From Deroplatys truncata (lineage: Eukaryota > Arthropoda > Insecta > Mantodea > Mantidae), in contig CM060985.1 of the NCBI GenBank assembly GCA_030765065.1, positions 176,082,096 through 176,146,095 on the forward strand: DNA of 64,000 nt. The letters are read 5' to 3'. Both the position numbers and the translations under genes were made by a program. The notes beneath the pieces were generated by a model. That model made no database searches, was not told the DNA's origin, and worked only from the letters and a program-made list of their open reading frames with translations. Of the stretch, positions 725 to 62,706 are shown piece by piece (the stretch's first letter is position 1; each line of letters opens with the position of its first letter).

Positions 725-1568
725 ACTTTCTCTACTACGTATACTAAGTAGGGGAAGTATTGTATTCCATTCAAAAATTCGATACCGAGATTTCACCGGA
801 AATATATGTTTTGAGACTCCTTGAATCCAAAAAAGCATTTTTGGAAACATGTCCGTGTGTGTCTGTGTGTGTATCTGTGAACAGCATAACTCAGAAACGA
901 ACGGTCGGATAAACACCAAACTTGGTATTTAGCTTCAGTATCTTCCAGAGATGCGACACGAAGGTTTTCAAGAAAATCCCCACCACAGATTACCCTTTAC
1001 ATGGAACATTTTTCGAAAATTTTAATTTTCTCAAAAATGGCTATAACGATTTTCATTAAAATATCATATGTTTAAGATATTTTCATGACAAATGAAATGT
1101 ATATCTCGAATTTTCTTGGAATGTCTCCAAAAGTATTCTTCATTGTGAACGACTTTTACATAACTGGTAAACCATAAGCGATAGACAAAATTTTACTTCA
1201 CAAAAAATGTAGATAGCGTTAACATACACAATTTTATGTCATATACATTCTTTTTGTTGGGTGAACCATTTTAGAGATATTGCTTGTTATTCGCTTAAAT
1301 TTTCCAATACTTATACTTTTACTCAAATTCGTTATTCATTTTTTTTGTCCTGGTAATGCAAAGAGAATGGAATACACCACATAGCAACCAGCTCTTAAAA
1401 TATTTGACTATACTTAAAGCCTACCATATTCCTCTTGCATCCACAAGAAAATTAGCAACAAGATTAACATCTCGATATCTCGATTAACATGAAGCATATG
1501 GAGAATAGGCGTTTGTAAAAGTAGTTTGTACAAGAGTAGAGAAAGTCATGTAAACGTAACGCATCAGA
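725..1568 (+). mobile_element. HINE-like non-autonomous element, type A, full length
   Basis: Representative full-length type A copy, about 845 bp. It starts ACTTTCTCTACTACGTAT, has a (GT)n-rich tract near 855-885, the near-palindrome 'accaaacttggt' near 920, a C-rich block near 990, and the inverted terminal motif 'agtagagaaagt' at about 1535-1546. It ends in a short hairpin and CAGA followed by T's. No frame is open for a protein. Placement of the 3' inverted motif about 22 bp inside the end, plus the terminal hairpin, is the arrangement described for Helentron-associated elements; that assignment is inference. The flanking DNA on the right is type B in reverse orientation, so this copy sits inside a B copy. 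Confidence 0.75.
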
Positions 1569-2120
1569 TTTTGTTTCTATCTGCTACATTTTAATCCAGT
1601 TCCTTATAGATACAAAGAGAACAGAACTTGACGCTATATGCTGGCGTCAAAATTCCATACTGTTTCCATGACATCGCGAGGAACAAGTGAATGTTGACAG
1701 GATTTGAAAAGTTTGATCAAGTAATGAACAATTCGAACCATTAATAACAGATATATCAGAAATGGCTTATGGTACAAAAAGCTTATTTGAAATAAATTGT
1801 AGGTTTTAAAGAGATCTACATTTTCTGTATACTACGTTTTCGTCTATCGCCTAACGTTTACCACTTATACAAAGTTATACAAAATTTTATTCGGAATGAA
1901 GTAGACTTTATAGGCTATTCCCATAAAATTGAAGGTATACATTTAACTTTTCATGTACATATCTTTAAACATAAATATGTTCGAAAAGGGTTTCATATAA
2001 AGGGTAGATGGGGTGGTGGATATTCTTCAAAAATCTTCGTGTCGCATTTTTGGAAGTTACGGAAATTAAATACCAAGTTTGGTATTTATAGAAGTTTCGT
2101 TTCTGAGTTATGCAATCGGA
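1569..2120 (-). repeat. Type B repeat, reverse, interrupted by the A copy
   Basis: Diverged type B sequence in reverse orientation. It contains the B-specific block 'gacgctatatgctggc' followed by 'ccatactgtttccatgacat', and further on the shared 'accaagtttggtatttat'. It continues the B copy entered by the A element at 725-1568. Part of the usual sequence after 'taatcc' is deleted. Confidence 0.65.
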
Positions 2121-2744
2121 GTATTATGGCAAAACGTATGGATATTAGCTTCGTCTTATTTGTTACTCTTATGGTAGTAATGTTTGAGTACCTTACAGAC
2201 CTTTGTTGTCGTTGTGTTGAATCCCTTTGTGTCATTTTATATCAATACACAATATTAATAAGCAACAGTAATATTTGGTCTGGTTTGATGCTGTTGTCAC
2301 AGTCTAATATACTAATAAACGGCAAATTTTGTTTAGTTTCTCAAATCTAGGCGATTATAGCGCCTTTACATTTGCGCAAGCATAGCCACAGGTGGATTAG
2401 CTGTTATAATGATTTATTTGACTGCGATATTATTCCATGATTAATGACGGAGAGCAGATTAACGAATAATGTGTGAGCTCGCTGTTCCTTTGTTATTTTG
2501 TGAGGCCGAGAAAACATAAGTAATTGTTATTATGTTGGCAGTGTTCGATCTACTGTCCATTCCAAACCAGAGTGCCTTTCACTGAAAACAAACTCTTTGT
2601 ATTATCCGCGCGAAAGTAGTTCACAATCCCCGCCCATAATGGCTGCTTGTTCCCCTCTCACGTGCTTGTTGAACACTATTTAAGTCTATAAAAAGGCGCC
2701 CTGCGTGAGAATCAGTTCAAAATGCAACTTGAGGTAACAATCGA
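2121..2744. other. Stretch without a recognised gene
   Basis: The 103-codon open frame at 2039-2350 starts inside repeat DNA and resembles no family I know, so I do not call it a gene. The stretch holds one arm (2550-2573) of a perfect 24-bp inverted repeat whose other arm is at 4003-4026. Confidence 0.3.
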
Positions 2745-4989: not shown

Positions 4990-5662
4990 TCTGATGTGTT
5001 ACTCTCACATGACTTTCCCTACTCTTGTACAAACTATTTTTTACAAACTCTTATTCTCCATATGCTTCACGTTAATCGATATGTTAATCTTATTGCTAAT
5101 TTTCTTGTAGATGCAAGGGGAATATGGTAGCTTTTAAGCGATAGTCAAATATTTTAAGAGCTGGTTGGTATGTGGAATATTCCATTCTCTTTGCATGTCC
5201 AGGACAAGAAAAATGAATAACGAATTTGAGAAAAAGTATAAGTATTGGAAAATTTAAGGGAATAACAAGCAATACCTCGAAAACAGTTCTCTCAACAAAA
5301 AAAGTGTATATGACATAAATTGTGTATTTTAACGCAATCTACATTTTTTTGTGTAGTAAAATTTTGTCTATCTCTTATGGTTTACCAGTTATGCAAAAGT
5401 CGTTCACAATGAAGAATACTTTTGGAGACATTCCCTGAAAATTCGAGATATACATTTCATTTGTCATGAAAATATCTTAAACATATGATATTTTAATCAA
5501 AATTGTTAGCCAGTTTTGAGAAAATTAAAATTTTTGAAAAATGTTCCATGTTAAGTGTTATCAGGGGTGGGGGGATTTTCTTGAAAACCTTCGTGTCGCA
5601 TCTCTGGAAGATACTGAACCTAAATACCAAATCCCCTACTTACTATACGTAGTAGAGAAAGT
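4990..5662 (-). mobile_element. HINE-like type A, reverse, internally deleted
   Basis: Begins TCTGATGTGTTACTCTCACA after an A-run and ends with AGTAGAGAAAGT. At about 5630 the sequence jumps from 'aaataccaaatc' to 'ccctacttactatacg', so the ~200 bp holding the (CA)n tract and the 'ccggtgaaatctcggtat' block are lost. Both ends are intact. Confidence 0.75.
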
Positions 5663-6659: not shown

Positions 6660-7505
6660 ACTTTCTCTACTACGTATAGTAGGTAGGGGAAGTATTGTAT
6701 TCCAACCAAAAATTCGATACCGAGATTTCACCGGAAATATATGTTTTGAGGCCCCCTGAATCCAAAAAAAGCATTTTTGGAAACATGTCCGCGTTTGTGT
6801 CTATGTATGTGTGTGTCTGTGTCTGTGAACAGCATAACTCAGAAACGAACAGTCGGATAGACACCAAACTTGGTATTTAGGTTCAGTATCTTCCAGAGAT
6901 GCGACACGGAAGTTTTTAAAAAAATCCCCCCACCCCAGATTACCGTTTACATTGAATATTTTTCAAAAATTTTAATTTTCTCAGAAATGGCTCTAAGGAT
7001 TTTGATTAAAATATCGTATGTTTAAGATAGTTTCATGACAAATGAAATGTATATCTCGAATTTTCTGGGAATGTCTCCAAAAGTATTCTTCATTGTGAAC
7101 GACTTTTGCATAACTGGTAAACCACAAGAGATAGACAAAATTTTACTACACAAAAAATTTAGATCGCGTTAAAATACACAATTTATGTCATATACATTTT
7201 TTTGTTGAGTGAACCATTTTCGAGATATTGCTTGTTATTCCCTTAAGTTTTCCAATAATTTTTCTCAAATGGGAATTGGTTATTCATTTTTTTGTCCTGG
7301 TAATGCAAAGAGAATGGAATACTCCACATAGCAACCAGCTCTTAAAAGATTTGACAATCGCTCAAAGTCTACCAATTGCCTTGCATCTACAAGAAAATTA
7401 CAATAAGATTCACATCTCGATTAACATGACGCATATGGAGAATAAGCGTATGTAAAAATAGTTTGTATAGGAGTAGAGAAAGTCATATGAGTGTAACACA
7501 TCAGA
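6660..7505 (+). mobile_element. HINE-like type A, full length, inside type B
   Basis: Starts ACTTTCTCTACTACGTAT and ends AGTAGAGAAAGTCATATGAG...ACATCAGA. It lies between 'aaagcttat' and 'tttgtttctatgtacc' of a type B copy. The A copy at 725-1568 has nearly the same flanks, so both entered B at the same T-rich position. Confidence 0.8.
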
Positions 7506-8639: not shown

Positions 8640-9440
8640 TCTGATGTGTTACACTCACATGACTTTCTCTACTCTTGTAAAACTATTTTTAGAAATGCGT
8701 ATTCTCCATCTACTTCATGTTAATCGAGATAAACATTTGCAGAAACTATCTTATTCCTAATTTTCTTGTAGATTTAAGGGGAATATATATTTACAAGGGC
8801 AATATAGAAAAACAGTAGCCTTTAAGCATATACATATCTCTTAATAGCTGGTTGCTAGGTGCAGCACCATTCCCTTTGTCACAGATTAATACTCTTTGCA
8901 TATCCAAGACAAAAAAATGAATAACGAATTCCCATTTGAGAAAATAAGTATTGAAAAATTTAAGGGAATACCAAGTAATATCTCGAAAATGGTTCACTCA
9001 ACAAAAAAATGTATATGACATAAATTGTGTATTTTAACGCGATCTACATTTTTTGTGTAGTAAAAGTTTGTCTATCTCTTATGGTTTACCAGTTATACAA
9101 AAGTCGTTCATAATGAAGAATACTTTTGGAGACATTCCTAGGAAATTCAAGATATACATTTTATTTGTCATGAAAATATCTTAAACATATGATATATTAA
9201 TGAAAATCGTTAGAGCCATTTTTGAGAAAATTAAAATTTTCGAAAAATCTTCGATGTAAAGGGTAATTTGGGGTGCGGGGATTTTGTTGAAAACCTTTGT
9301 GTCTCATCTTTGAAAATACTGAACCTAAATACCAAGTTTGGTGTTTATCCGACTGTTTGTTTCTGAGTTATGCTGTTCACAGAGACACACACAGACAGAT
9401 ACACAAACACACACACACACGGACATGTTTCCAAAAATGC
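8640..9440 (-). mobile_element. HINE-like type A, reverse, truncated at its 5' end
   Basis: Starts TCTGATGTGTTACACTCACA and is colinear with other A copies through the (CA)n tract at about 9380-9420 and 'ggacatgtttccaaaaatgc'. There it stops abruptly, losing the ~130 bp that should lead to AGTAGAGAAAGT. Unrelated sequence with a candidate exon follows immediately. Confidence 0.75.
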
Positions 9441-10558: not shown

Positions 10559-11417
10559 ACTTCCTCCATTACATACTTAGAGTAAGTAGAGAAGCTATCG
10601 CATTCGATCAAAAATAATTCAATATCGAGATTTTACCGGAAATATATGTTTGAGACCTCTGAGTCCAAATAAAGCATTATTGGTGACATGTCCGTGTGTC
10701 TGTGAATATCATAAGTAAACAATGAAAATTCGGATAAATACCAAACTTTGTATTTAGGTTCAATACCTTCCAAAGATGCTACAAGATTATGTTCAACGAA
10801 ATCTCTCCACCCTAGACTACTCTTTACATGGGACATTTTTCGAAATTTTTTGTTTTCTAAAAATGGCTCTATCGGTTTTGATTAAAATACCATATATGAA
10901 ATATATTTACATGACAAATAAATGTATATCTTGAATTTTTGGGGAACAGCCTGTGAAGTCCTCTTCATTCAGAAGGAATTTTGTATAACCTTGCATAACG
11001 GTAAACGTTAAGCGATAGACGAAAACGTGCTTCACATAAATGTGGATCTGTACAAAACATACAATTTATTTCAAATGGTTTCTTTGTGGCATAAGCCATT
11101 TCTGAGATATCCGTTACTAAATGTTTGAATTGTTCAATAGTTATTGTTTTGAAGTCCCATCGATTTTCAGTTGTTTCTCGCGATGTCATGGAAACAGTAT
11201 GGAATTTTAAGGCCAGCATATAGCGTTCAGTTGTTAAACATTTGACTATCGCTGTTCTCTTTGTATCCATAACGAAATGTGTAATGTAGCTGTTTCTGTA
11301 AATGTTTATTTGGATTAAAATGTGGTAGATAAAAAGTAAGCTTTAGTAGGAATAATCTGTATATCCACCAATAAACCATAGAGGTAGAGAAAGTCATGCA
11401 AATGCATCACAATCAGA
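10559..11417 (+). mobile_element. HINE-like type B, near full length, uninterrupted
   Basis: The cleanest type B copy, about 860 bp. Its start 'acttcctccattacatac' is diverged. It has a reduced GT tract, then the B-specific 'gttgtttctcgcgatgtcat' and 'ggccagcatatagcgt', and ends 'gtagagaaagtcatgc'...'atcaga'. It is colinear with type A over the first ~500 bp and differs in the 3' third. It is a useful reference for recognising the interrupted B copies. Confidence 0.75.
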
Positions 11418-14000: not shown

Positions 14001-14067
<67 letters not shown>

Positions 14068-17030: not shown

Positions 17031-17199
17031 AATCTAAATCATTACTGCCATTTTTGAGCAAGCCCCTATTTTCTTGAAATTCTTTGTGCCGTATCTTTGG
17101 AAGATGCTGAAATTAAGTATTAAGTTTGGTATTTATCAGAAGTTTCTTTTTTGAGTTATACTGTTCACAAACACTCGCGAACCTTTTACTAAAAGTTTG

Positions 17200-17830
17200 T
17201 GTTACAATCGCATGACTTTCTCTACCCTTATCGCTTACTAGAGGATATACAAACCATTCCTACTAATTTGTTTTTCTATCTACTACATTCTAATCCAAAT
17301 AAACCTTTACAGAAATAGCTACATTACACATTACGTTATAAATACAAAGAGAACTGCGATTGTCAAATGTTTAACAACTGGACGCTATATGCTGACCTTA
17401 AAATTCCATACTGTTTCCACGACATCGCGAGATATAATTGAAGAGGACTTAGTGCAGAGGACTTCATGATCGTGTCCCAGAAAATTCAAGATATACGTTT
17501 TATTTGGCATATAAATGTGTTTAAGGTGTGTTTTAATCAAAATCGTTAGGCATTTCTGAGAAATCAAAAGATTCGAAAAATATTTCAGTAAAGAGTAGTT
17601 TGGGGTGGTTTGGTATTTAGCTTGATACTTATCCGATATTTTGTTTTTGAGTTATGCTGTTCTAAATCATGCATACACACAGATACACAGACATTTTTAT
17701 AACAATATTTTTCTGCTTCAAGGGCCTCAAAACATGTATTTACGGTAAAATCTTGATGTCGAATTTTTTAGTAAAAAGCAATACCTTCTCTATCTCCTAT
17801 GTACGCGGTAGAGCGAGACAGTACGTTCTA
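17200..17830 (-). repeat. Type B repeat, reverse, with internal deletion
   Basis: Starts 'gtgttacaatcgcatgactt', then 'tttttctatctactacattc', the B signature 'gacgctatatgctgacct', then jumps after 'cgcgagatataattg' to the 'gaggacttcatgatc' block. It ends near 'tatgtacgcggtagag'. This copy shows the uninterrupted B sequence at the position where A copies lie at 725 and 6660. Confidence 0.7.
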
Positions 17831-18469: not shown

Positions 18470-19252
18470 TCCGATGTGATACACTCACATGACTTTCTCT
18501 ACTCTTGTAAAAACTATTTTTACAAACCCTTATTTTTCATATGCTTCATGTTAATCGAGATTTTAATCTTATTGCTAATTTTCTTGTTGATGCAAGGGGA
18601 ATTGGTAGGTTTTAAGCGATAGTCAAATGTTTTAAGAGCTGGTTGCTATGTGGAGTATACCATTCTCTTTGCACTACCAGCACAAAAAATGAATAACGAA
18701 TTTCCATATGAGAGAAAGTATAAGTATTGGAAAATTTAAGGGAATAACAAGCAATATCTCGAAATTGGTTCACTTAACAAAAAAAATGTATATAACATAC
18801 ATTGTGTATTTTAACGCGATCTATTTTGTCTATCTCTTATGGTTTACCAGTTATGCAAAAGTCGTTCACAATGAAGAATACTTTGGGAGACATTCCCGGA
18901 AAATTCAAGATATACATTTTATTTGTCACAAAAGTATCTTAAACATATGATATTTTAATCAAAATTTTCTAAAAATGTTGCATGTAAAGGGTAATCTGGG
19001 GTGGGGGATTTTCTTGAAAACCTTCGTATCGCATCTCTGGAAGATACTGAACCTAGATCCAAGTTTGGTGTTTATCCGACTGTTCGTTTCTGAGTTATGC
19101 TGTTCACAGACACACACAGGCATGTTTCCAAAAATGCTGTTTTTTTTGGATTCAGGGGAGTCTCAAAACATATATTTCCGGTGAAATCTCGGTATTGAAT
19201 TTTTGGGTGGAATACAATACTTCCCCTAGATACTATACGTAGTAGAGAAAGT
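18470..19252 (-). mobile_element. HINE-like type A, reverse
   Basis: Starts TCCGATGTGATACACTCACA and ends TAGTAGAGAAAGT next to AAAAA. The CA tract is short ('cacacacagg' near 19112) and a ~60-bp block around 'cgagccatttttgag' is missing. Both ends are present. Confidence 0.75.
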
Positions 19253-19646: not shown

Positions 19647-20484
19647 ACCTTCTCTACTACACATAGTAAGTAGGGAAGTATTGCATTCCACTCAAAAAAA
19701 TCGATATCGAGGGTTCAGCGCAAATACATGCTTTTAGGTACCCTGAATCTAAATAAAACAGTTTTGAAAACATGTTCTTAAGTGTGTCTGTCTGTGAACA
19801 GCATAACTCAAAACCGAAAAGTCGGATAAATACCAAACTTGGTATTTGAGTTCAGTGTCTTCCAAGGATGCAACACTGAGATTTTAAAGAAAATTCCCTT
19901 ACCTATACCAGAGTACCCTTTACATGGAACATTTTTCGAGAATTTTGATTTTCTCAAAAATGGCCCTAACGATTTTGATTAAAATATATATTTAAGATAT
20001 TTTTATGGCAAACGAAATGGTTAACTTGAATTTTCTGGAATTGTCCCCCAAAGTCCTTTTCGTTCTGAATGACTTTTACATAACAGGTAAACCGTAAGGG
20101 ATACAAAATTTTTACTACACAAAAGATGTAGATCTCGCTAAAACACACAATTTATACATTCACATTCTTTTGCAGAGTGAACCATTTCCGAGTTATTCCT
20201 TGTTATTTATTTGAATTTCCCAATATTTATGGGAATTCGTTATTCCTTTTTTATGTCTTGGACATACAAAGAGAATGGAATGCTGCACATAGCAACCAGC
20301 TCTTAAAATATTTGACTATCGCTTAAAGCCTACCATATTCCTCTTGCACTTACAAGAAAATTAACAATAAGATAGAGTCTGCAAATGTTTATTTCGATTA
20401 TCATGGAGCATATGGAGAATAAGCGTTTGTAAAAATAGTTTGTACAAGAGTAGAGAAAGTCATGTGAGTGCAACACACCATATT
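19647..20484 (+). mobile_element. HINE-like type A, forward, full length
   Basis: Starts 'accttctctactacacatag' and ends 'agtagagaaagtcatgtgag' plus 'acacaccata'. The GT tract is reduced to 'gtgtgtctgtctg'. Sequence order is otherwise standard. Confidence 0.75.
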
Positions 20485-22889: not shown

Positions 22890-24455
22890 AATATGTATTA
22901 AAGTGGAAGAAGGATTGTATTGCGCTCAATGACGAGATTTTACTGGAAATATATCTTTTAAGGTACGCTGAACCCGAAATTGTATTTTTAGAAGAAGGCC
23001 CGTGTCTGTGTGCAAATATCTTCCAGTGATCCAACACCACAAACTATCCTTTATACGGAAAATTCAACATTCTTTATTTTCTAAAAACTGACCAACTTTT
23101 TAACTAAAATAGCGTACATTAAAGTGCCTATGAACTCCTCTTCATTTGGAAGGAATTTTGTATAATCATGTATAACTGGTAACCGTTAAGAGATAGACAA
23201 GGGCGTACTACACAAAAAAATCTGACGTGTTAGACTCACATGACCTTCTCTACTCTTGTACAAACTATTTTTACAAACACTCATTCTCCATATCCTTCAT
23301 GTTAATCGAGATATTAATCTTATTGCTAATTTTCTTGTAGGTGCAAGGAGAATATGGTAGGCTTTAAGCGATAGTCAAATATTTTAAGAGCTGGTTGCTA
23401 TGTGGAGTATTCCATTCTCTTTGTGTGTCCAGGACATAAAAAAAGAATAACGAATTTGGGAAAAATATAAGTATTGGAAAATTTAAGGGAATAACTAGCA
23501 ATATCTCGAAAATGGTTCACTCAACAACAACAAAAAATGTATATGACAAACTGTGTCTTTTAACGTGATCTACATTTTTTGTGTAGTAAAATTTTGTCTA
23601 TCCCTTATGGCTTACCAGTTATGCAAACGTCGTTCACAATGAAGAATACTTTTGGAGACATTACCAGAGAATTCAAGATATACATTTTATTTTTCATGAA
23701 AGTATCTTAAACATATGATATTTTAATCAAAATCGTTAGAGCCATTTTTGAGAAAATTAAAATTTTCGAAAAATGATCCATGTAAAGGGTAATCTGGGGT
23801 GGGGGGATTTTCTTGAAAACCTTCGTGTCGTATCTCTGGAAGATACTGAACCTAAACACCAAGCTTGGTGTTTACCCGATTGTTCGTTTCTGGGTTATGC
23901 TGTTCACAGACAGACAGACACACACACACATACGGACATGTTTCCAAAAATGCTTTTTTGGATTCAGTGCACCTCAAAACATGTATTTGCTGTGAAATCT
24001 CGGTATCGAATTTTTGGGTGGAATACAATACTATCGCTACTTACTATACGCAGTAAAGAAAGTAAAAGTTTAGATCTGTTTAAAACACACAATTTATTTA
24101 AAATAATTGTTTTTTGGCATGAGCCATTTCTAAAATATCCGTTACTAATGACTCGAATAGTTCAGTACTTAGCCAATTATTTTAAAATTCTCTACATGTT
24201 CAGTTGTTTCTCGCGATGTCATGGAAACAGTATGGAATTTTAAGGCCAGCATATAGCGTCCAGTTGTTAAACATTTGACTATCGCTGTTCTCTTTGTATC
24301 TATAATGAAATGTGTAATGTAGCTGTTTCTGTAAAGGTTTATCTGGATTAAAATTAAGTGGATGGGAAGATAAATTTTCGTAAGTATAATTTGTATAACC
24401 GCTAATGAACGATAGTGAGTAGAGAAAGTAATGTGAATGAAACAACATTTTTAAT
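22890..24455 (+). mobile_element. Type B repeat, forward, split by a type A copy
   Basis: Left part 22890-23220 runs from a degenerate head through 'agagatagacaagggcgtac' to 'tacacaaaaaaa'. Right part 24064-24455 resumes at 'tttagatctgtttaaaacac', then the B signature 'gttgtttctcgcgatgtcat' and 'gagtagagaaagtaatgtga'. Type B normally reads 'acacaaaaaatgtagatc' here, so the A copy entered that A-run. Confidence 0.75.
23221..24063 (-). mobile_element. HINE-like type A, reverse, inside type B
   Basis: Starts TCTGACGTGTTAGACTCACA and ends CAGTAAAGAAAGT. CA tract at about 23915-23930. The insertion point in B is the same as that of the A copy at 47094-47982. The 156-codon frame starting at 23773 lies inside this repeat. 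Confidence 0.8.
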
Positions 24456-30607: not shown

Positions 30608-31378
30608 TTTTATTACCTTCTCTCCTACTTAGGTATAGTAAATAGAGTAGGTATTGCTTTCCAAATCACCAAAAATACAACTTTTGAAGCTACCTAATAA
30701 ACAAATGAGATGTCCTTACCCTACCCTACCTGCGTACACAAGCTATTGTTACGAAATCTTACTTTTTATCTACTTAATCGTAATCAAGACAAGCCTTTCC
30801 GAAAATAGCTGCATTATACATTTCGTTGTAGATATAAAGGGAACAGCGACAATTCGAACAATGGATTTCTCGGAAATGGCTTACGCCACACAAAAATATA
30901 TTTGAAATAAATGGTGTGTTTTAAAGAGATGTATATTTCTTGTGTAGTACGTTTTCGCCTATCGCTTATCGTTTACCAGTTATACAAGATTATAGAAAAT
31001 TCCTTCCGAATGAAGAGGACTTCATAGGCTGTTCCAAGAAAATTCAAGATATATATTTTATTTGCCAGTAAATTGGCAATTTAATCAAAATCGCTAGAGC
31101 CATTTTTGGAGGAAAAAATTGAAAAGTGCTCCATGTAAAGGACATTTTGGGGTGGGAAGATATTCTTGGAAATCCTCGTGTCACATATTTGGAAGAGTAA
31201 GTGAACTTAAGCACCAGGTTTTGTATTTATCTGACCTTTCGTTTTTGAGTTATGCTGTTCAAAGACAGATACACACGGACCTGTTTCTAATTTTTTTTCC
31301 AGGGACCTCAAAACATTTTATTTCCGTTGAAATGTCGACATCGAATTATTGGTTGTCAGATACGTGGTAGAAAAAGTA
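30608..31378 (-). mobile_element. Type B repeat, reverse, preceded by a head scrap
   Basis: 30608-30690 is a forward head fragment ('accttctctcctacttagg'). From about 30755 the sequence is type B in reverse: 'aatcgtaatcaagacaagcc', 'gatataaagggaacagcgac', 'cgcctatcgcttatcgttta', 'gggtgggaagatattcttgg'. It ends near 'atacgtggtagaaaaagt'. The B signature block at 'gacgctatatgc' is deleted. Confidence 0.65.
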
Positions 31379-31983: not shown

Positions 31984-34382
31984 TTAATTTACATCTCTTT
32001 TTATTGTCCATAACCATTTCTTTTTACTTTCTCTACTAAGTATAGAAAGTAGGGGAAGTATTGCATTCCACCCAAAAATTCGATACCGAGATTTCACCGG
32101 AAATACATGTTTTGAGACCTCCTGAATCCACAAAAAGCATTTTTGGAAACATGTCCGTGTGTGTGTCTGTGTGTGTGTGTGTGTCTGTGTGTGTGTGTGT
32201 CCGTGAACAGCATAACTCAAAAACTAACAGTCGGATAAACACCAAACTTGGTATTTGCGTTCAGTATCTTCCAGAGATGCGACACGAAGATTTTCAAGAA
32301 AATCCCCCCACCCCAGACTACCCTTTACTTGGAACATTTTTCGAAAATTTTAATTTTCTCAAAAATGGCTCTAACGATTTTGATGAAAATATCATATGTT
32401 TAAGATAAGGTCATGAGAAATGAAATGTATATCTCGAAATTTCTGGGAATGTCCCCAAAAGTATTCTTCAATATGAACGACTTTTGCATAACTGGTAAAC
32501 CATAAGAGTTAGACAAAATTTTACTACACAAAAAATGTAGATCGCGTTAAAATACACAACTTATATCATATACATGTTTTTTGTTGAGTGAACCGTTTTC
32601 GAGATATTGCTTGTTATTTCCTTAAATTTTCCAATACTTATACTTTTTCTCAAATTCGTTATTCATTTTTTTATGTCCTGGACATGCAAAGAGAATGGAA
32701 TGCGCCACATAGCAACCAGCGTTAAAATATTTGACTATCGCTTAAAAGCTACCATATTCCCCTCGCATCTACAAGAAAATTACAAATAAGATTGACATCT
32801 CGATATCTCGATTAACATGAAGCATATGGAGAATAAGCGTTTGTAAAAATAGTTTTTACAAGAGTAGAGAAAGTCATGTGAGTGTAACACATCAGATTTT
32901 TTACTTTGGACAGATACTCTCCTACCTTTTTACTATCCTTGTTAAAAATCTTACTTAAAGCTACTTTCCTGTCCCGTTTTAACCATTTCCCATTTATAGC
33001 TACCTTTCTCCAATGCTGTGTACCTTTACAGTCAAAAACGATATGTTATAAATCTTCTCTTTCCCCACATATTGGGCACTGATTCTGTGGGAACCCATTT
33101 CTCATTCCTATTAGTCTCCATACACCTGCTCGTTCCCAGGCAATACTTTCTCTTTGTTCCCTATTTGAGTTATCCACATAATGTTCTCTAGCCCATACAT
33201 TTTTTATTAATATATATGATTCCAAGAACTTTTCTTCCGATGCTACTAAATGAATTTTGTATCTCGATATTTTCAAACCTCTGCCTAGCTTCTTTCCAAA
33301 AACCCTTAACATTATTTTCCCTCCTTCTCCAGATTTCCCCTAAACCACTATTTTCCAAATTCGTTTGTATACTATAACTCCACCCATTTTCTTTAAGCTC
33401 CTTTCTTGGAATTCCAAACACTGCCTCAACAAGTTATTCACTTCTAAATTTAATAGTCTGTACCAATATTTGAGAGCTTTCTCCATTATTACCCCTTTCG
33501 CCCCACTCTCTGCATTTCAATTAGAGCAAATTCCTTAATTGTAGCATTTGGCAGGCCTAAAACTTCTCTGCAGAAACTCCTATGTACCATATCTATCTCT
33601 TCCCAGCCTCGTTCTACTCCCCATATTTTACTTCCATATAACATTTTTGCTTCAACTACTGTGTTATATATTTTCTCTAGCCATTTAACATTTATATCTG
33701 GTATTCTATATTTGCACCCTCTAATCGCTGACATTGCCCCTTTCCCCTTTGTCAATACCAGTTTCTTCTGTTTCTCCCATTTTTCACCCCCATCCATTTT
33801 AACCCCTAAATATATACAATCTCTGACCACTTTATATTCCTTCTCTCCATTCATCCACTTTTCATACTTGCCCAGTTTGGCACCTTTCTTAAACACTATA
33901 ATTTGAGTCTTCTCTTGATTTACTTTCAGATTCCACTCATCACAGCATTTATTCATTTGCTGTAGGGACTGCTTCAAACCAATCGTTGAAACTGATCCTA
34001 TCACTAAATCATCAGCGAATAATAACCCAGGGATTGATACCTTATTTATCATAGGCAACCAATTATTATTCCTTCCTATCTCAGTGAGGATATCATCAAT
34101 ATACAGATTAAACAACACTGGACTTTACTTACATCCTTGTCGTAACCCCTTCCTTTGGTTTACTTCTTTTGTCACCAATCCTACTCCTACTTTCACACAA
34201 AATGTTTTGTCCTTGTATAGAGCTTTAAATAAATTCACCATCTGTTGACTTACTCCCTTCCTCAAGAGTTTGTGCCACAACAAATTTAAATCAATGCGGT
34301 CATACGCTTTCTCCAAATCAACAAATGCCATGTATAATTTTCCCCTTTTTTCTTTTAAATGCTTATCCACCAGAGTTTTAAG
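31984..34382 (-). pseudogene. Non-LTR retrotransposon reverse transcriptase, split by a type A element
   Basis: Minus-strand RT starting inside the palm: LYMAFVDLEKAYDRI (first catalytic Asp region), GLRQGC, then LFADDLV (catalytic FADD), a thumb-like stretch, then MLYGSKIWGVERGWEEID. The C-terminus has CPICGERED, HIVFDC and KWLKRDRKVALSKIF, a Cys/His knuckle. Several frameshifts and stops occur (a TAA before HIVFDC, and a TAA after GLRQGCK). The last codons are interrupted: ...EYLSKVK at 32897-32920, then the 870-bp type A element, then KKWLWTIKRDVN and TAA at 31984. Upstream domains (endonuclease, RT fingers) are absent, as in 5'-truncated copies. Confidence 0.85.
32026..32896 (+). mobile_element. 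HINE-like type A, full length, inside RT gene
   Basis: Starts ACTTTCTCTACTAAGTATAG and ends AGTAGAGAAAGTCATGTGAG...ACATCAGA. It has T5 on the left and T6 on the right. GT tract at about 32157-32202. Because the interrupted RT frame can be rejoined, this copy fixes both element ends to within the T-run. Confidence 0.9.
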
Positions 34383-38300: not shown

Positions 38301-39776
38301 TGCGTATACTAAGTAGGGGACGTATTTTATTCCACCCAAAAATTTGATACCGAGATTTCACCGAAAATACTTGTTTTGAGACCCCTGAATCCAAAAGAAG
38401 CATTTTTGGAAACATGTCCATGTGTGTCTGTGAGTGTGTGTGTCTTTGAGCAGCATAACTCAGAAACGAACAGTCAGATAAGCACCAAACTTAGTATTTA
38501 GGTTCAGTATCTTCCAGAGAAGCAACACAAACGTTTTCAAGAAACACAGAACATTTTTCGAAAATTTTAATTTTCTCAAAAATGGCTCTAACGATTTTGA
38601 TTAAAATATCATGTTTAAGATATTTTCATGACAAATGAAATGTATATCTTGAATTTTCTGGGAACTCTCCAAAAGTATTGTTCATTGTGAACGACTTTTG
38701 CATAACTGGTAAACCATAAGAAATAGACAAAATTTTACTACACAATAATGTAGATCGCGTTAAAATACACAATTTATGTCATATACATTTTTTGTTGTTG
38801 AGTGAACTATTTTCGAGATATTGCTTGTTATTCCCTTAAATTTTCCAATGCTTATGCTTTTACTCAAATGGAAATTATTTTTTCTTCTTTTTTATGTCCT
38901 GGACATACAAAGAGAATGGAATACACCACAAAGTAATCAGCTCTTAATAGATTTGACTATCGCTTAAAATGAAGCATATGGAGAGTAAGAGTTTGTAAAA
39001 ATAGTTTGTACAAGAGTAGAGAAAGTCGTGTGAGTGTGACACATCAGTTTTTTTATTGTGTGGCTCGTCATTTCTCACGGTCCTCCATTGCCCTCTATCT
39101 TTAATTGGTCCGTATATTCATATTAAAATCTTCTGCCTTTGCGATTCTTTAAGCACCCAAATTTCACAGCCGTAAGTTACTACAGGCCTTATAATAGTGT
39201 TGTAAATTGTTAGTTATTTTGTGAGAGCTTACTAGTGAGTTAAAACTCCTAGCTGCAGTGAAACTAATTCCTCAGTTTTAAAGGTTGTTTAGACAACGTA
39301 CTCTGGCGGGATTACAACTGTGTAAATTAAAACAGACTTTTGAACACACATTTTGAAGACCACCATTTACTACGGGGACAACAGATAAAACAGCAACGCT
39401 GTTAGTGGCGCTGGCTCGCGGTCGTGCGCCGCTCTCCTCCCGAGACTCCAGCAGCTTTCTTCATACCCATACATTAAAGTCCATTACATGATTCTAAGGT
39501 CGGTGAGCGCTGTGTGTGAAGCTAGAATAATTTGACCCTATTTTCTTTCACGAAATAATTAATGCTGCGCGGTACCCCATGCAGCACCTTTTCTCTCAAT
39601 TGAAGATGAACGAATGCACGGCGTATTTCAACAAGACGGGGCTACATCTCACACAGATCTGGATTCTTTGACTACAATTATTGCTGACGTCTTTGCAGAG
39701 TGAGTGATCAGTGTAAGGTTGTGGCCCACGTGATCACTAGACCTCACGCCCTACAATTTTTTCTTACTTATAGGGT

Positions 39777-43912: not shown

Positions 43913-44004
43913 TTATACGCTACATGTGAAAATTAATGAAGCATTCTTTATTATTATGCGTTCAGAATTAGTAAGTACGTATTGACGATATTGTGAATGT
44001 GCAG

Positions 44005-47093: not shown

Positions 47094-47787
47094 TCTAATG
47101 TGTTACACTCACATGACTTTCTCTACTCTTGTACAAACTATTTTTACAAACGCTTATTCTCCATATGCTTCATGTTAATCGAGATATCGAGATGATAATC
47201 TTATTGGTAATTTTCTTGTAGATGCAAGGGGAATATGGTAGGGTTTAAGTGATAGTCAAATGTTTTAAGAGCTGCTTGCTATGTGGAGTATTCCACTCTT
47301 TTTGTATGTCCAGGACATAAAATAAATGAATAACGAATTTGAGAAAAGGTATAAGTATTGGAACATTTAAGGGAATAACAAGCAATATCTCTAAAATGGT
47401 TCACTCAACAAAAATGTATATGACATAAATTATGCATTTTAACGCGATCTACATCTTTTCTGTGGTAAACTTTTGTCTATCTCTTATGGTTTACCATTTT
47501 ACCAAAAGTCGTTCACAATGAACAATACTTATGGAGACATTCCCAGAAAATTCAAGATATACATTTTATTTGTCATAAAAATATCTTAAACATATGATAT
47601 TTTAAAGAAAATCGTTAGAGCCATTTTTGAGAAAATTAAAATTTGCGAAAAATGTTCTATGTAAAGGGTAGTCTGGGGTTGGGGGATTTTCTTGAAATCC
47701 TTCGTGTCACATTTCTGGAAGATGCTGAACCTAAATACCAAATTTGGTGTTTATCCGACTGTTCGTTTCTGAGTTATGCTGTTCACA

Positions 47788-47845
<58 letters not shown>

Positions 47846-47982
47846 GACACACGGACATGTTTCCAAAAATGCTTTTCTTGGATTCTGGGGATCCCAAAAC
47901 ATGTATTTCCGGTGAAATCTCGGTATCGAATTTTTGGGTGGAATACAATACTCCCCTACATACTATACGTAGTAGAGAAAGT
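47094..47982 (-). mobile_element. HINE-like type A, reverse, inside type B
   Basis: Starts TCTAATGTGTTACACTCACA and ends AGTAGAGAAAGT. It carries the longest CA tract of the family here (about 47786-47842). The same B position is used as by the A copy at 23221-24063. Confidence 0.85.
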
Positions 47983-48015
47983 AAAAATGTAGATCTCTTT
48001 AAAACACACAATTTA

Positions 48016-50870: not shown

Positions 50871-51786
50871 TGAGGTGGGATCAAAAAGTTTCCGGAATGG
50901 CTTCACAACAATGCTGATGCTGGGATTTCTTTAATTCTTACCCAGACTATACATCCAGCGTTCCTTCAAGATAAAAACGAGAGTTCACCTGACTTCCTGT
51001 GACCATACAGTGACGAGGTAGACGCTCTGAATTGCATGTGCTGCGATTTTTCCGCGTAGCAAAAATGTTAGATTACGAAGAACAAAGCACGAACATCAAA
51101 TTTTGCTTTAAACTCGGTACAACTGCAACAGAAGCCTATGAAATGTTAAGAACATCTTATGGAGAGGACGTTATGGGCAAAAGTCAAGCATTTAAGTGGT
51201 TTTCGAAATTTAAAAGCGGTGTGACATCAGTTAAAGATGCAGTTCGTTCGGGGCGACCCTATTCCAGCAAAACTGATGAAAATATCACTCAGGTGGGGGA
51301 AATGATCTTAAATGATAGGCGAGTTACAATAAGAGAACTTTCTGACTCATTAGGACTCTCATTTGGAAATGTTCAAAGCATTTTGAAAGACAATCTGGAC
51401 ATGTTCCTGCATCATGATAACGAGACCGCGCACAAACCCCTTTCTGTTCGCCAATTTTTGGATAAAAATAGGATGAATACTGTTCCCCATCCCGCCTATT
51501 CTCCAGATTTGGCACCAGCGGACGTTTTTTCTTTTCCTGCGACTTAAAATGTGGCTCCGAGGACACCGTTTTGAGGACATTGATGTCATCCATCGCGAAT
51601 CGCAGAAGGCTCTGAAATGTTGAAAGAAGAGGACTTCCAGAGGTGCTTCCAGCAGTGGCAGAAGCGCTGGGACAAGTGTATCAACTCCCAAGGAGACTAC
51701 TTCGAGGGTGACAGTGCAGATTAGACAAAACAAACTGTTGTGTAGTATTTATGGCGTCATTCCGGAAACTTTTTGATCACACCTCG
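50871..51786 (+). mobile_element. Internally deleted mariner with intact ends
   Basis: Ends: TGAGGTGGGATCAAAAAGTT (50871) and in reverse CGAGGTGTGATCAAAAAGTT (ends 51786), both followed by TCCGGAATG, with TA on each side. The gene from 51065 reads MLDYEEQSTNIKFCFKLGTT, then AFKWFSKFKSGVTSVKDAVR, LSDSLGLSFGNVQSILKDNL, and jumps to DMFLHHDNETAHKPLSVRQF and SPDLAPADVFSF. About 130-140 residues including the first catalytic Asp are missing with the frame kept. A later frameshift follows. At 916 bp it could move only with help from a full copy elsewhere. Confidence 0.9.
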
Positions 51787-52685: not shown

Positions 52686-54125
52686 GTCTCCTACTTTTTG
52701 CTTTCTCTATCCCGCACCTGGTAGATACAGAAGTTATTGTATTACACCTCAAAAATTCATATCGGGACTTCACCGGAAATACATGTTTTGAGGACATTTG
52801 AATATAAAAAGGAAAATGACTGCCAACGAATCAATATAAAAATTTTTATCGATATTTTACAAATTCGAGCGCTATCTAAACAGTCTGATGCGGAACACTT
52901 ACATGACCTCTACTCTTGTAAAACTATTTTTACAAACGCTTATTCTCTATCTACTTCATGTTATTGATAATTTTCCTGTAGATGCAAGGGGAATATGGTA
53001 GCCTTTAAGCGATAGTCAAATATTTTAACGCTGGTTGCTATGTGGCGCATTCCATTCTCTTTGCATGTGCAGGACATAAAAGAATGAATAACGAATTCAC
53101 ATTTGAGAAAAAGTATAATTATTGGAAATTTCAAACAAATAGCAAGGAATATCTTGGAAATGGCTCTCTTCATAAAAAAGATGTACATGACATAAGTTGT
53201 GTATTTTAACAAGCTCTACATGTTTTACGTAGAAAAATTTTGTCTATCTGTTACAGTTTACCATTTACGCAAACGCCATTCAGAAAGAAGAGGATTTTTG
53301 AGGACATCTCTAAAAAATTCAAGATATACATTATATTTTTTATATAATATCTTAATTATATGATATTTTAATCAAAATTGTTTGAGAAATTTTTCAGAAA
53401 ATCGAAGTTTTCATAAAATGTTCCATGCAAAGTGTAGTCTGATGTTAAGGGATTTTCTTGAAATCTGGATGTCGCATCTTTGAAAGATACCGAATCTAAA
53501 AACCAACTTTGGTATTTATTGGACTTTCTCGGTATCGAATGTTTAGGTGGAATGCCATACTTCCCCTACTCACTATAGCCTTTGTAAGAACGGTTCGTAT
53601 ACCCACTAATAAATGATAGAGGGTAGAGAAGGGTGTGTGAAAGAAGCACATCAGATATTTTTTTTCTTGTGGTCATGCAAAGAGCATGGAATTTCAAAGT
53701 CATCTTATAGTGACCTCTTATAAAAAAAATCTGACGCTTTAGCGTACTGTATTCTTTTATATATCTACAATGAAATGTCCAGTGGAACTTTATCTCGATT
53801 AAAGGAAGTAGATAGAACAAGCTTTAGTAAGAATAGTTCGTATAAAAGTGAGCAGAGAATTTCATGTGAATGCGACACAAAACATTTTTCAAACCGTTAT
53901 CGCTCTTTAGTTGTTTCTCGCGATGGTAAGGAGTGAAGATGGAATTAAAACGCCAGTATATAGCCAAACGTGTAACGAAATATGCAATGGAAAGAATTTA
54001 TGCAAACGTTTATCTCAATTAACTTGAAGTAACTATAAGTATAAGGGTTTTTAACGTATAGTTTGTAGAAGCTATATAAAATAGTGGTTGGAGAAAGTCA
54101 TGTGAATGTAACATCAGATTTTTTT
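52686..54125. repeat. Cluster of family pieces (types A and C)
   Basis: 52690-52805: forward head ('gctttctctatcccgcac', 'tcaccggaaatacatgtttt'). 52880-53578: type A in reverse, lacking the CA region, ending 'ccctactcactata' without the AGTAGAGAAAGT motif. 53580-53900: type C forward tail with 'cttgtggtcatgcaaagagc' and 'gagcagagaatttcatgtga'. 53905-54125: another forward tail with 'gtttctcgcgatggtaag' and 'ttggagaaagtcatgtgaat'. All non-coding. Confidence 0.65.
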
Positions 54126-56829: not shown

Positions 56830-57960
56830 ACCTTCTCTACACATACACAGTTGTAGACAAGGTACTGCATTTCACCCAAAAATTCGATATTGAAATTTCT
56901 CTGGCAATACATTTTTTCAAACCACCTGTATTCCAAAAAAAGTTATTTTTACTATCTCTAGCATATACCTAGTAGATAGAGTAGTTATTGCATTCCACCC
57001 AAAAATTCAAGCGCCAGATTTCATCGAAAACACATGTTTTGAGTCCCCCAGAAAAGAAAGGAAAATAAAAGAATTTTAGAAAACGTCCGCGCAAGTGATG
57101 TGTGAACAGTTGAACCGAAAAAGAAATGTCAATAAATAAAAAACTTGGTGATAAAGTGTTCCAAAGAAGTGACAAGGAGATTTTTAAGAAAATCACCCAA
57201 CCCCAAACTATCTTTTACATACAATGTTTTCGAAATTACCGATCTTCGTAAAATGACAGGATTTTGTTTAAAATACCAAATGTTTAATTGATTTGGATGA
57301 AACATAAAACGTAAATCTCGAATTTCTTAGGAACAGCCTCCAAAATCCTTTTCATTCAAAGGAATTTTTTAGAATTTTGTATAAATCGTAAACTTTGTGG
57401 AATAGACACTACACAAGAAATTAGATCTGTTGATAATTTATTTAAAAAATCTTTTTCGTGGCATTAGCCATTTCCGAGGTATTGTTTGTTATTGGTTTGA
57501 ATTTTTCATTACTCCTGTAATTTTCAAGTGCTGTTGATATTCGGTTTTCTCCCGATGTCATAGAAGGAAAGTGGAATCTCTAGGCCAGGATACAGCGACT
57601 AGCTATTAAAGCATTTACTATCGATTCGGTTTCTTCTATTCCTCTCGTATCTATAATGAAATGTATAGTGAAACTATTTCTGCAAGGTTTTATCGGGATT
57701 AACTTAGCGTAGATAGGGAAATAAGCTTTCATAGGAAAAGTTTGTGGAAGGTGTATAAAAGTAAACGATAGTAGGTAGAGGATATCATGCGAATGTCTCA
57801 CATGAGATTTTTGGAATAGGGTTCTGTGTGTTTGTGTCTAAACAGATAACTCAAAATTGAAATTTTTGATAAATACTAAGTCTTTTATTTCAGTTCAGCA
57901 TCTCCGAAAGATACAACATGAAGATTTCCCCACTCAATATATTTTACAGAATCATTTGTC
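56830..57960 (+). repeat. Type C copies, forward, tandem pieces
   Basis: A first head at 56835-56940 ('accttctctacacatacac', 'caaaaattcgatattgaaat') is followed by a second head at 56950 ('actatctctagcatatacct') that continues to a tail at 57790 ('gtaggtagaggatatcatgc'). 57815-57960 begins a third, truncated piece ('gtgtgtttgtgtctaaacag'). The consecutive heads suggest insertion of one copy near the start of another. Confidence 0.6.
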
Positions 57961-59363: not shown

Positions 59364-59374
59364 CGCTTTTAGTA

Positions 59375-60064
59375 AAATGAAAACTGTCGAAAATATTTCC
59401 ATGTAAAGCGTAATACCAAGTTTGGTATTTAAGCAAATTTTCATTTTATACTGATGCTGTTCACACACATAAATGGACCTTTTTGTAAAAATAGTTTTTG
59501 AGTTCAGGGGACCTCAAAACATGTATTTCTAATGAAATCTCAAAATCAAATTTTTGTGTGGAATACAGTAGTTACTTCCCCTTTCCTACTATAGGTAGGT
59601 GGTAGAGAAAGTAAAATTCGGGCCAATAACAATGAATATCTCGAAAATGGTTAGTGCCACAGAAAATTATTTGCTTTAATTACGATGCTTCACGAGATCT
59701 ACAAAATTTAATAAATCATCATTTTTATATATCTTAAAGTTTACCAATTATGCAAAAGTAGTTCAGAATGAGGATACCTTCAAATGCTATTTGCAGAAAA
59801 TTCAAGATAAATATTTTATTTGCATTCAAATATCTTGAACATAAACTTTTTAATCAAAGTCGTCAGAGCGACTTAAAAAATAGAAAGACCAAATTCGGTA
59901 TTTAACTGACTTTCCCTTTTTTTATTTAACCTGTTCACATACAAGCACACATGGGCCTTCTTCAGAAGTGCTATTTTGGATTCATGGGGCCTCAAAACGT
60001 GCATTACTGTTAAAATCTTGACAACGAAATTTTGGTTGTATTGCAGTATTTGTATTTAGTACAG
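59375..60064 (-). repeat. Type B/C pieces, reverse
   Basis: 59375-59620 runs from 'gaaaatatttccatgtaaag' to 'gtggtagagaaagtaaaa', i.e. the 5' third of a copy in reverse. 59622-60064 is a second piece ('caataacaatgaatatctcg', 'ctcaaaacgtgcattact') without the terminal motif. Both are diverged. Confidence 0.6.
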
Positions 60065-60516
60065 GTACATACGGATAGAAGGGCCGCCACAATTGGAGCA
60101 AAGCACCGCATGCTTGCTTCCGGCCCTTTGTGCTTATACTGTGGGAAGGAAGGGCGAGGTGAGAGAACCGAAGGGCTACTAGATGCGGATGACGAGTGCG
60201 GAAGTATATGGGGGATCCCTAACGTTTTCAGTTCGAAGCCCATCTACAAGCCACTAACTATAGGGGATCTACTAGAAGGGGCATCCAGCCAGACGCGGGT
60301 CATAAATGGTCATCCCCACCACCAGCCGCGAAACGCCTGGCCCTATAAGATGATAATGAAGGAAATTATGTGTATAGGAACTGAGGTAAGGGGATTCTTG
60401 GTAGAAGATTCGCCTACCTACCCGGTGAAACCACGAAAAACCCATGGGGCAGCGTGGGCGGTCACCGGAGATTGACCCGAATGCGCGGCCCCACTTCGCT
60501 CGGTCAGTGGAGAAAG
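60065..60516 (-). mobile_element. SINE family S1, reverse copy
   Basis: The minus strand opens near 60516 with 'tgaccgagcgaagtggggcc', 'gcgcattcgggtcaatctcc', 'cacgctgccccatgggtttt' and 'tcgtggtttcaccgggtagg'. It ends with 'ctgaaaacgttagggatccc'. Colinear with 45765-46270. The 147- and 154-codon frames crossing it are incidental. Confidence 0.7.
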
Positions 60517-61090
60517 AAAATATGCAACTTACTGTACCTATGCTTCTTTGAAGGGGAGGGTTTAATCCTTTGTTTGGAATTTCCTTCAGGGGGAATGTAT
60601 AAACGTGAGAGAATAGAATATTTATGAACCATAACGTTCCATTTCCACACTTTGATAGATGTTGGCTACATACACTGTCGGAAGAAGAAAAACATAAAAC
60701 ACAGAGCGACATTCGGATTTGATGCGGACAATACATCCTCTGCGTAGTCTCTTTTTCTTCTTTTCTTTATTTTCCCCCTACGATGTGGATGCACAATTCA
60801 CAGGTTGTCACTGGTGAAAGAATCGCCGCAGTAAAACTGCAATTTTAAACACTGTTATGTTCATAATGCCCATCAAAATATATCGCCGGTTATTCCATTT
60901 TATTACGTTCTGTCACTATGACAATTACTTTACCCTTTGTGTCACCTCCACATGTCTAAAACAAAAACAGCAAACCCGTGCGGCAGCACATCGCATCATT
61001 ACAAATACCCTTAAACGCTAAACAGTGATTTTTTCAGTGTTCTATAGAAAATTGCAATTTTTCATTTCAGCTTTTCGTTTCTCGGCTTTT
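60517..61090. other. Stretch without a recognised gene
   Basis: No credible frame and no repeat recognised. Confidence 0.3.
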
Positions 61091-62706
61091 ATTGGTTTCT
61101 CTACTAACCAAATATAGTAAGTAGAGGAAGTATTGCATTCCACATAACAATTTGTTACCGAGATTTCTAGCCTCTGTAAAAGAAAAGCTGATCACATGAA
61201 CTTCTCTAACCTCTTGGGTATACAAATTGTTGTTACAGAAAGTCAATTCCCTATCTGCTTCATTTTAACTAAGACAAACCTTTACGGAAATACCTAACAA
61301 AGAAAACACAAAAATTTTGGGAAAAAAGATCTTTATATCTCTATATAGTTTCCTTTCAGCTCGATACATTTTCCCAGCGATGTTCAAACGCTTCGACACC
61401 CTGTTTATAGTGAGAACAGTGGAGTTCTGCAAAATAGCCATCAACTGCAAACTCTACCTCTTCATTGTTGGCAAATCTTTTAACACGAAGCCATTTCTTC
61501 AACTTTGGAAACAGAAAATAATCAGCGAGGACTAAGTCTGGCGAATAGGGTGCTTGAGGAAGCAATTCGAACTTTAACTCATTGATTTTGGCCATGGAGA
61601 TAATGGATGTGTGAACTGGTGCATTGCCGTGATGAAATAGAACTTTATTTTTCGCTAAATACGGACATGTTTGCTTAATTTCATCATTCAAACGCTACAA
61701 TAAGTTTGTATAACACTCGCCATTGATTGGCATTTTTGGAGCCAATTCTCCCCTTTTAATCCACCCTTTTGACGTTCCTTCGTCTCAGATGTGAAGTGAT
61801 GGACTCGTGTTTCATCCAGGGTTATGAATGGACGCAAAGAGTCGGCTTTGTTGTAGCAAAACATCGCCAAACACTCGACTGAAACATCCTCACGACTCTG
61901 CTTTTGTTCCATTGTGAGCAAACGCGGGACCAATTTTGCGCAAAGCTTTCTCATGTGTAAAGTTTCAGTTAGTATGCGATGTACAGCACTTTTTGAAATA
62001 CCTACAATGTGTGCTAGCTCGCGCACATTCAGTTGACAGCCATCGAATATCATTTTGTGGATTTTATTCACAATTTCTGGCGTGGTCACCTCATTTGGTC
62101 GACTACTGCGATATTCGTCCTGGCAGCTCGTACGCCCTCGCTTAAACTCTGCCCCCAATATTTTACTGTTGTAAACGAAGGAGCAGACTCCCCCAGAGCA
62201 GAATCTAGCTCAGCTTTAATATTAGTTGGGCTAAGACCTTTCAAATGAAAGTATTGTATCACATAACGATGACCAGTTTTATCTTTGTTCAATATTAATG
62301 GCTGCCAAACAATTACTAAACAACGTAGCATCGTCAAACTTCAAATTTAAGCCTTATAAGATTGGTACATTTTACCACCGTCATATTTTTGAAGCAACCA
62401 TCACTATCTATACCTCAGGTCGGGTTTTTATGGGGCTGCCGTCGGAGAAAGAGAACAGCGATAGTCAAATGTTTAAAAACTGGACGCAATACGCTGACCT
62501 TAAAGTTTCCATTAAATTCCGAGAAACAACTGTAAAAGACAAAGTTATGAACAATTGTAATCATTAAAAGCCGAACTCTCGGAAATGGCTGATGCCAAAG
62601 AAAGGATATTGGAAATAAATAGTGCGTTTTAAATAGATCTATATTTCTTGTTTAATACGTTTTCGTCTCTTCCTTAACGTTTACCAGTTATACAAGATTA
62701 TACGTA
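61091..62706 (-). repeat. Type B pieces around a mariner
   Basis: 61091-61170 is a forward head ('gtttctctactaacc', 'ccacataacaatttgttacc'). 61180-61290 is a B start in reverse ('gctgatcacatgaacttctc', 'ctaagacaaacctttacgga'). 62445-62706 resumes B in reverse ('gaacagcgatagtcaaatgt', 'gtttaccagttatacaagat') and is cut by the transposon at 62707. The reverse pieces flank the mariner and read as one copy when it is removed. Confidence 0.6.
61338..62300 (-). pseudogene. Mariner transposase (DD34D), disrupted
   Basis: Minus strand: VIQYFHLKGLSPTNIKAELD, SAPSFTTVKYWG, FKRGRTSCQDEYRSSRPNEV, VRELAHIVGISKSAVHRILT, LVPRLLTMEQKQSREDVSVE, FITLDETRVHHFTSETKE (first Asp), then a frameshift and a shortened middle. 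The catalytic core resumes NDEIKQTCPYLAKNKVLFHH with GNAPVHTS where DNAPxHTS is expected, so the second catalytic Asp is Gly. It continues ELLPQAPYSPDLVLADYFLF (third Asp), HYKQGVEAFEHRWEN and, in another frame, a C-terminal end near 61338. Several frameshifts. I could not define its terminal repeats. Confidence 0.8.

Follow-up and report, generated by a model that had tools for sequence, protein, structure and literature searches.

Helentrons and their non-autonomous relatives, the Helentron-associated interspersed elements (HINEs, DINE-1-like), have been described by Thomas, Vadnagara and Pritham in 2014 (PMC4067079). As described there, these elements carry subterminal inverted repeats (subTIRs) of 12-15 bp, an inverted repeat near the 5' subTIR, a 3' palindrome and an internal microsatellite; Helentrons insert into T-rich targets without duplication, have extra Ts at their boundaries and possess a Rep motif with a serine, and the non-autonomous copies outnumber the partner that encodes Rep, helicase and endonuclease. 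The serine stands in the second Rep motif, and the resulting GSPHEH type is regarded as the signature of Helentrons (PMC4067079). Helitrons with a deubiquitinase resembling that of the herpesviral tegument have also been assigned to the Helentron subclass (PMC9741609). In the present work, we analyze a 64-kb stretch of the 4.29-Gb assembly of the mantis Deroplatys truncata (C11:176082096-176146095, hereafter the window), in which a dominant repeat family had been predicted, from the letters alone, to have Helentron/HINE-like architecture. The members of this family are almost certainly HINEs, that is, short non-coding rolling-circle transposons that a Helentron of the same genome, itself active until recently, would mobilize in trans.

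All the listed features of the elements in PMC4067079 recur in this family or its partner. Two differences from that account are the distance of the 3' subTIR from the end, which is 22 bp (plus Ts) here and 38-60 bp in the mite elements, and the deubiquitinase, which here is of the herpes-tegument type. HINEs, Helentrons, their viral-type deubiquitinases and composite ends are already known; what is unusual is the share of the genome taken by a single family, the ratio of about 5,500 non-autonomous to one autonomous element, and the tens of thousands of self-insertions, all beside near-identical autonomous copies with long open reading frames (ORFs). Such matched Helentrons next to their parasites are something that DINE-1-like families had long lacked, according to PMC4067079. 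Because the HINE and the Helentron form a matched set, trans-mobilization of HINEs, the choice of ends in rolling-circle transposition and the role of the deubiquitinase become directly testable.

The repeat family and its autonomous partner

A type-A consensus of 840 bp was built from the eight aligned window copies that have both ends. These copies start with ACTTTCTCTACTACGTATAGTAAGTAGGGGAAGT, preceded by TTTT, continue through a (GT)n tract and end with AGTAGAGAAAGTCATGTGAGTGTAACACATCAGA, followed by TTTT. The 12-bp subTIR lies 0 bp from the 5' end and its 3' copy 22 bp before the CAGA end, so that the arrangement is asymmetric; the 3' palindrome ATGTG...CACAT, with a short stem of 5 bp, is present in the aligned copies, as is the short inverted repeat near the 5' subTIR, in the form known from DINE-1. 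Two folded 5' ends were more stable than shuffled sequences (z -2.7 and -2.1), with ACTTTCTCTACT pairing with AGTAGGGGAAGT. The alignment of the eight copies thus bears out the ends given in the original prediction, namely ACTTTCTCTACT at the 5' end, its inverse 22 bp inside the 3' end, the ATGTG...CACAT hairpin followed by CAGA, the (GT)n tract and the T-rich flanks. The predicted absence of coding capacity also agrees with the two window ORFs overlapping family copies that were tested, neither of which has a Pfam match at E 0.01. Of the three types distinguished by their 3' third in that prediction, A and B were recovered and C was not: among the 15 window 3' ends that passed the filter (failing ends being left unclassified), clustering yielded type A with 10 ends and type B with 3, while the ends at 256 and 6610 each stood alone. 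In the same clustering, the autonomous elements described below form an additional, separate 3' type (10/10).

On the two strands of the window together, there are 16 exact matches to the 12-mer ACTTTCTCTACT, and 28 matches if one mismatch is tolerated. A BLAST search with the type-A consensus covers 15,590 bp (24.4% of the window) in 52 pieces at E 1e-3 and 15,360 bp in 35 merged segments at E 1e-5; together with three type-B representatives, 18,448 bp or 28.8% of the window is covered in 31 merged segments. Coverage thus falls a little short of the nearly one third estimated earlier, while the count of more than 30 segments was correct. A chance or microsatellite artefact was ruled out, since shuffled consensus controls matched the window in 0/20 cases (0 bp covered) and the count of the 12-mer in the genome is about 267-fold above that of its backwards control.

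In the whole genome, the exact 12-mer is found 537,760 times (267,484 + 270,276; backwards pattern, 1,038 + 974) and the internal 14-mer GAACAGCATAACTC 271,705 times (control, 3). Of these two words, 16 and 9 exact copies, respectively, lie in the window, and the genome mean is 0.50 and 0.45 of the window density. Scaled from the 28.8% coverage of this one window, the family is estimated to make up roughly 13-14% of the genome. Very large, Helitron-rich insect genomes have been likewise described in grasshoppers, where Helitrons account for 7-20% of repetitive DNA in gomphocerines and 17-22% of the assemblies in morabines (PMC7486953, PMC7754599); these figures, however, refer to all Helitrons together, whereas the estimate given here is for one family. 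Among the 100 12-mer matches listed, from the first 9 Mb of C1, 29 belong to one array, and 40 of the other 71 form 20 inward-facing pairs less than 1.2 kb apart, 18 of which are spaced 793-956 bp.

A profile search of the genome for the Rep domain (PF14214) returned at least 152 matches (150 of 291 candidates scored), which fall into broken copies of greater age and a group that is young and homogeneous. Open frames in the young group are long, reaching at least 2,000 aa in 18 of the 59 young-group matches examined. Ten young-group loci, picked for their long frames and all located at different genome positions, were fetched with their flanks. Each contains one ORF of 2,108-2,543 aa, and in 10/10 the family 5' end lies upstream and the 3' end downstream, so that the search for Rep/helicase-coding relatives with the same termini, suggested along with the prediction, was positive in every locus fetched. 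Positions 1-709 and 808-840 of the HINE consensus align to one of these elements, C9_66068003, and in 9/9 comparisons with it the aligned region ends within the T-run that directly follows CAGA. Identity of the HINE to the coding elements, which are about 10 kb long, is 90% over consensus positions 1-709 and 95% over positions 1-620, and 31 of the terminal 34 bases are common to the two; both the short and the coding copies are found at T-rich sites.

The domain scan covered one ORF, that of C9_66068003, which encodes, in this order, Herpes_teg_N (39 bits), DUF6570, Rep (PF14214, Helitron_like_N, 100 bits), PIF1 (PF05970, 100.6 bits) and a C-terminal endonuclease; a match to the Helraiser chain 7lcc was obtained for the PIF1 part (E 1.7e-24). 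The Rep motif GSPHEH (VEFQMRGSPHEH) was found in 10/10 fetched copies, followed by HMFFWLKD or HMLFWLKD, and at the second triplet (F/Y w/l/y/k R) there is no assignable R. The proposed Helentron/HINE link is thus supported by ORFs with a GSPHEH-type Rep, enclosed by the family's own ends in all ten loci, and, in the ORF scanned, by PIF1 and a C-terminal endonuclease of the apurinic/apyrimidinic (AP) type. An ORF combining a tegument-like deubiquitinase with a C-terminal AP endonuclease is also characteristic of the VTD-carrying Helentrons (PMC9741609), for which activity has been shown with zebrafish copies, whereas the copies analyzed here are known from sequence alone and, unlike those described in that paper, additionally contain a region of 21-residue repeats that varies in length. 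The underlying 63-bp repeat is present in 13.9-23.9 copies across the ten loci (L047/L048 = C9:66060000-66076999), and its variation probably accounts for much of the difference in ORF length.

All 45 pairs of the ten autonomous copies show 99.10-99.93% identity across 4.45 kb, and transposition must therefore have been recent; judged by this identity, the Helentron family is young and recently mobile. The autonomous-type 3' end occurs exactly 49 times in the genome, in 39 cases with a same-strand Rep match, among the matches listed, no more than 8 kb upstream, and a Rep 24-mer occurs 31 times. Exact-word counts put the number of copies or 5' parts at about 270,000, as compared with these 49 ends, and the ratio of about 5,500:1 relates the internal 14-mers, which are also present in stacked 5' parts, to the same 49 ends. 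In the proposed mechanism, the HUH nuclease of Rep would nick the T/ACTTTC 5' end, PIF1 would unwind the strand, the 3' subTIR and hairpin would signal termination at CAGA, and the released strand would be pasted into a T-run.

Self-insertion and stacked composites

As T-runs are present within the HINE, older copies would offer landing sites to new ones. Where the internal site GTTATTCA(T)n(A)TGTCC is empty, its run comprises 6-8 T (25 sites, mode 7); where it is filled, there are 4-6 T at the 5' junction (15 sites) and 5-8 T at the 3' junction (10 sites), which amounts to a gain of about four to five T. Among the matches listed, exactly five T are found in 85 of 100 5' junctions, and seven or eight T in 31 of 42 3' junctions; the old copy at window position 6660 shows no clear gain of T relative to its empty sites. 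At Helentron boundaries, a 'string of Ts (2 to 5) ... part of the element', variable in number, has been described (PMC4067079). The T gain raised the possibility of a fixed target-site duplication, which was rejected: in the four copies whose 5' flank is TTATT and whose 3' end could be assigned (window 6660, C5_31079366, C13_23831875 and C10_14444151), TTATT is repeated after CAGA in 0/4, with TTTGTTT or seven to eight T standing there instead, so that a simple duplication fails to explain the gain. Consistent duplications of fixed length had been named in the original prediction as grounds for abandoning the Helentron link, and no fixed length fits these four cases.

Head-to-tail joints with at least three T number 7,408 in the genome, against 0 for the control, and all of the 96 pure-T joints among the 100 matches listed have at least five T, whereas CAGA followed by ACTTTCTCTACT within 0-2 bases occurs once. 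This single bare joint, compared with the 7,408 T-joints, led us to reject the idea that the tandem copies are bare circle junctions.

Junctions at the internal T-run amount to 19,053 for the 5' side (9,486 + 9,567) and 13,279 for the 3' side (6,610 + 6,669), with 0 for either backwards control. If about half of the 537,760 12-mers are 5' ends, about 7% of 5' ends lie at this T-run, compared with the 7 of about 411 window T-runs of five or more (under 2%) that are this internal site, the patterns of the two counts differing slightly. The excess may reflect the copying of composites as much as a preference for the site. Such composites are seen in the autonomous elements themselves: in 9/10, one or more additional 5' ends of the HINE type are present, and C9_66068003, C1_248257786 and C4_193702201 each have stacked 5' ends and one adjoining 3' end.

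Similar composites have been reported in Helitron2 elements of Fusarium (FoHelis), several of which have several 5' ends and one 3' end; they were explained by self-insertion, with replication proposed to start at the outer 5' end and to stop at the first 3' end (PMC5148889, the only paper returned by a search for Helentrons and self-insertion). The many thousands of self-insertion junctions found here stand out in scale against the Fusarium composites as described in that paper. In the mantis, composites in which 5' ends are stacked would likewise arise if replication started at an outer 5' end and stopped at an inner 3' end. The higher number of 5' than of 3' junctions agrees with such a start and stop, but is only suggestive because the 5' and 3' patterns differ in length and variability.

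An alternative explanation, which concerns the stacks only and which we consider unlikely, is that they arose through unequal crossing-over or array slippage rather than through self-insertion followed by rolling-circle mobilization. Arrays containing a HINE do expand, as the 3.4-kb array of C1 described below demonstrates, and 43 of 100 5' junctions, among the matches listed, form chains with spacings of 443-671 bp; yet thousands of matching 5' and 3' sides are found at the same internal T-run, and units like C9_66068003 join an outer 5' end to an inner 3' end, each beside non-family sequence. Retaining self-insertion, we tentatively propose a self-docking system, in which the T-run of the HINE would serve as a standing landing site and composites whose autonomous element is preceded by stacked outer HINE 5' ends would now move as units; a few dozen Helentrons might in this way be the driving force behind parasites in the hundreds of thousands, behind the stacked arrays and perhaps behind satellites. 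The self-insertion junctions, being thousands in number, also represent a large natural data set on the start and stop of replication.

The array in question extends from about 20 to 122 kb from the start of C1, with a unit of about 3.4 kb; TTAGG arrays, which point to an arthropod rather than a cephalopod genome, are located about 15 kb from the end of this contig. In the part fetched (L001-L008, C1:19011-45879), 8/8 units contain one full HINE copy each, at 90.5-91.3% identity, which suggests a satellite that has captured a HINE. In Crassostrea gigas, non-autonomous Helentrons are tied to tandem repeats as well (PMC7492417); the mobile elements described there carry satellite-like repeats, whereas here a whole copy resides inside a satellite unit.

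Alternative partners of the family

Several observations weigh against the assignment of the family to HINEs driven by the identified Helentron. In the last 60 bp, the autonomous element and type A are alike in 40 of 66 aligned columns, and they differ over most of the 3' third, so that type A is no simple deletion derivative. Two folded 3' ends were no more stable than shuffled sequences (z -0.2 and -0.3), the deubiquitinase has a weak PDB match (E 0.0099), and 10 of the 49 autonomous 3' ends lack a Rep match among the matches listed. Given the density of the family, about two 12-mers are expected per 17 kb anyway; because this density is very high, the link between HINE and Helentron rests on the coincident alignment boundaries and the fixed 3' end, not on proximity. 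To the same side belong the score of the endonuclease against Exo_endo_phos_2 (25.5 bits, E 1.3e-5), which is under the Pfam cut-off of 27.4 bits, and a PDB search with this domain, which returned nothing convincing.

The sub-threshold score could also be taken in favor of a partner of the Helitron2 type, which has no endonuclease. The C-terminal domain, however, spans positions 2-117 of the 117 of Exo_endo_phos_2, and four motifs, YQNV, FSET, GDFN and FSDH, which we take to be those of AP endonucleases, are legible in it, making such a partner very unlikely. The termini of Helitron2 elements and Helentrons are alike (PMC5148889), and FoHelis share with the family asymmetric inverted repeats, a 5' hairpin and, in two FoHeli subgroups, a 3' end terminating in T; as described in that paper, they are, unlike the elements studied here, without endonuclease, few in number and invariant in the number of 3' Ts.

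Even less probable is that the family derives from canonical Helitrons (Helitron1) and is moved by the older Helitrons of the genome. Older, mostly broken Helitron_like_N copies (L009-L028) coexist with the young Helentrons. Such degenerate copies count in favor of this explanation, and in 3/20 loci (L012, L024 and L026) the Helitron form of the motif, RGLPHAH, can be read; but the family lacks TC...CTRR ends and the A^T site, having ACTTT...CAGA in T-runs instead, and the young group bearing the family ends is of the GSPHEH type. The exact subTIR was found in 1/20 of the older loci, which reach 1.5 kb to either side of Rep, compared with about nine expected by density; this count is no fair test because young loci of the same size have none (10/10). 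The older PF14214 copies were set aside as a partner on the basis of ends and motif type.

Hardly credible is a family of miniature inverted-repeat transposable elements moved by a DDE transposase, such as that of the mariner/Tc1 elements of the window, since, in spite of T-rich flanks and inverted repeats that can resemble those of such elements and the DDE/Mos1-type transposase fragments within the window, the ends are asymmetric (0 vs 22 bp) and without symmetric terminal inverted repeats, no fixed duplication is seen in the four assignable TTATT cases, and it is Rep/PIF1 elements, instead of the DDE-coding relatives envisaged in the original prediction as an argument against the Helentron link, that bear the family ends in 10/10 fetched loci.

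Family copies and other elements in the window

The copy at 725..1568 (+), identified by alignment and consensus BLAST, is a complete type-A HINE without a match in the empty-site search; as judged from flank similarity alone, namely that of its 3' flank to the 3' third of type B, it was probably inserted in an older type-B copy. According to empty-site matches, three of the eight complete copies lie inside older family members: 6660..7505 (+), with paralogous empty sites in the type-B copies at 11270-11398 and 17208-17338; 23221..24063 (-), at an internal T-run of an older copy whose parts lie on both sides of it; and 47094..47982 (-), within an older copy (46875-47091 + 47983-48015). The other type-A copies found by alignment and examined in the empty-site search are 4990..5662 (-), which has both ends but an internal deletion (673 bp), and the complete copies 18470..19252 (-; 783 bp), 19647..20482 (+; older, 83% to the consensus, also matched by BLAST) and 32026..32896 (+; with a long (GT)n tract). 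Less complete type-A copies were detected by BLAST at 8640..9440 (-), without about 110 bp of the 5' end, and at 38303..39047 (+), which is nearly complete (consensus 14-839 with a gap).

Type B is represented by a copy at 10574..11416 (+), with the common 5' part, the other 3' third and the 3' subTIR at 11383, by a fragmentary copy at 17193..17813 (-), with the 3' subTIR from 17226 on the minus strand, and by the 3' part of the interrupted copy at 24064..24451 (+), with the 3' subTIR at 24418. BLAST further identified an old diverged fragment at 30857..31355 (-; 73%, consensus search), a degraded copy at 52884..53577 (-; 80%) and old diverged fragments at 56862..57513 (+) and 59374..60051 (-).

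Searches beyond the family detected neither a tRNA in the window nor an Rfam match at the gathering score; plasmids had no match to window positions 725-1580, and viral contigs none to the 22-bp 5' end. Pieces of mariner/Tc1-type transposases (HTH_48, DDE_3 and related) are located at 27701-28060, 28968-29447, 37162-38019 and 51014-51547, and a reverse transcriptase fragment (RVT_1, 48 bits) at 33489-34124 (-). The window also contains a 36-bp tandem repeat in 23 copies at 44002-44830, with a repetitive 263-aa open frame on the minus strand, and a large tandem array at 54515-56138 with units of 70-76 bp and 339-429 bp.

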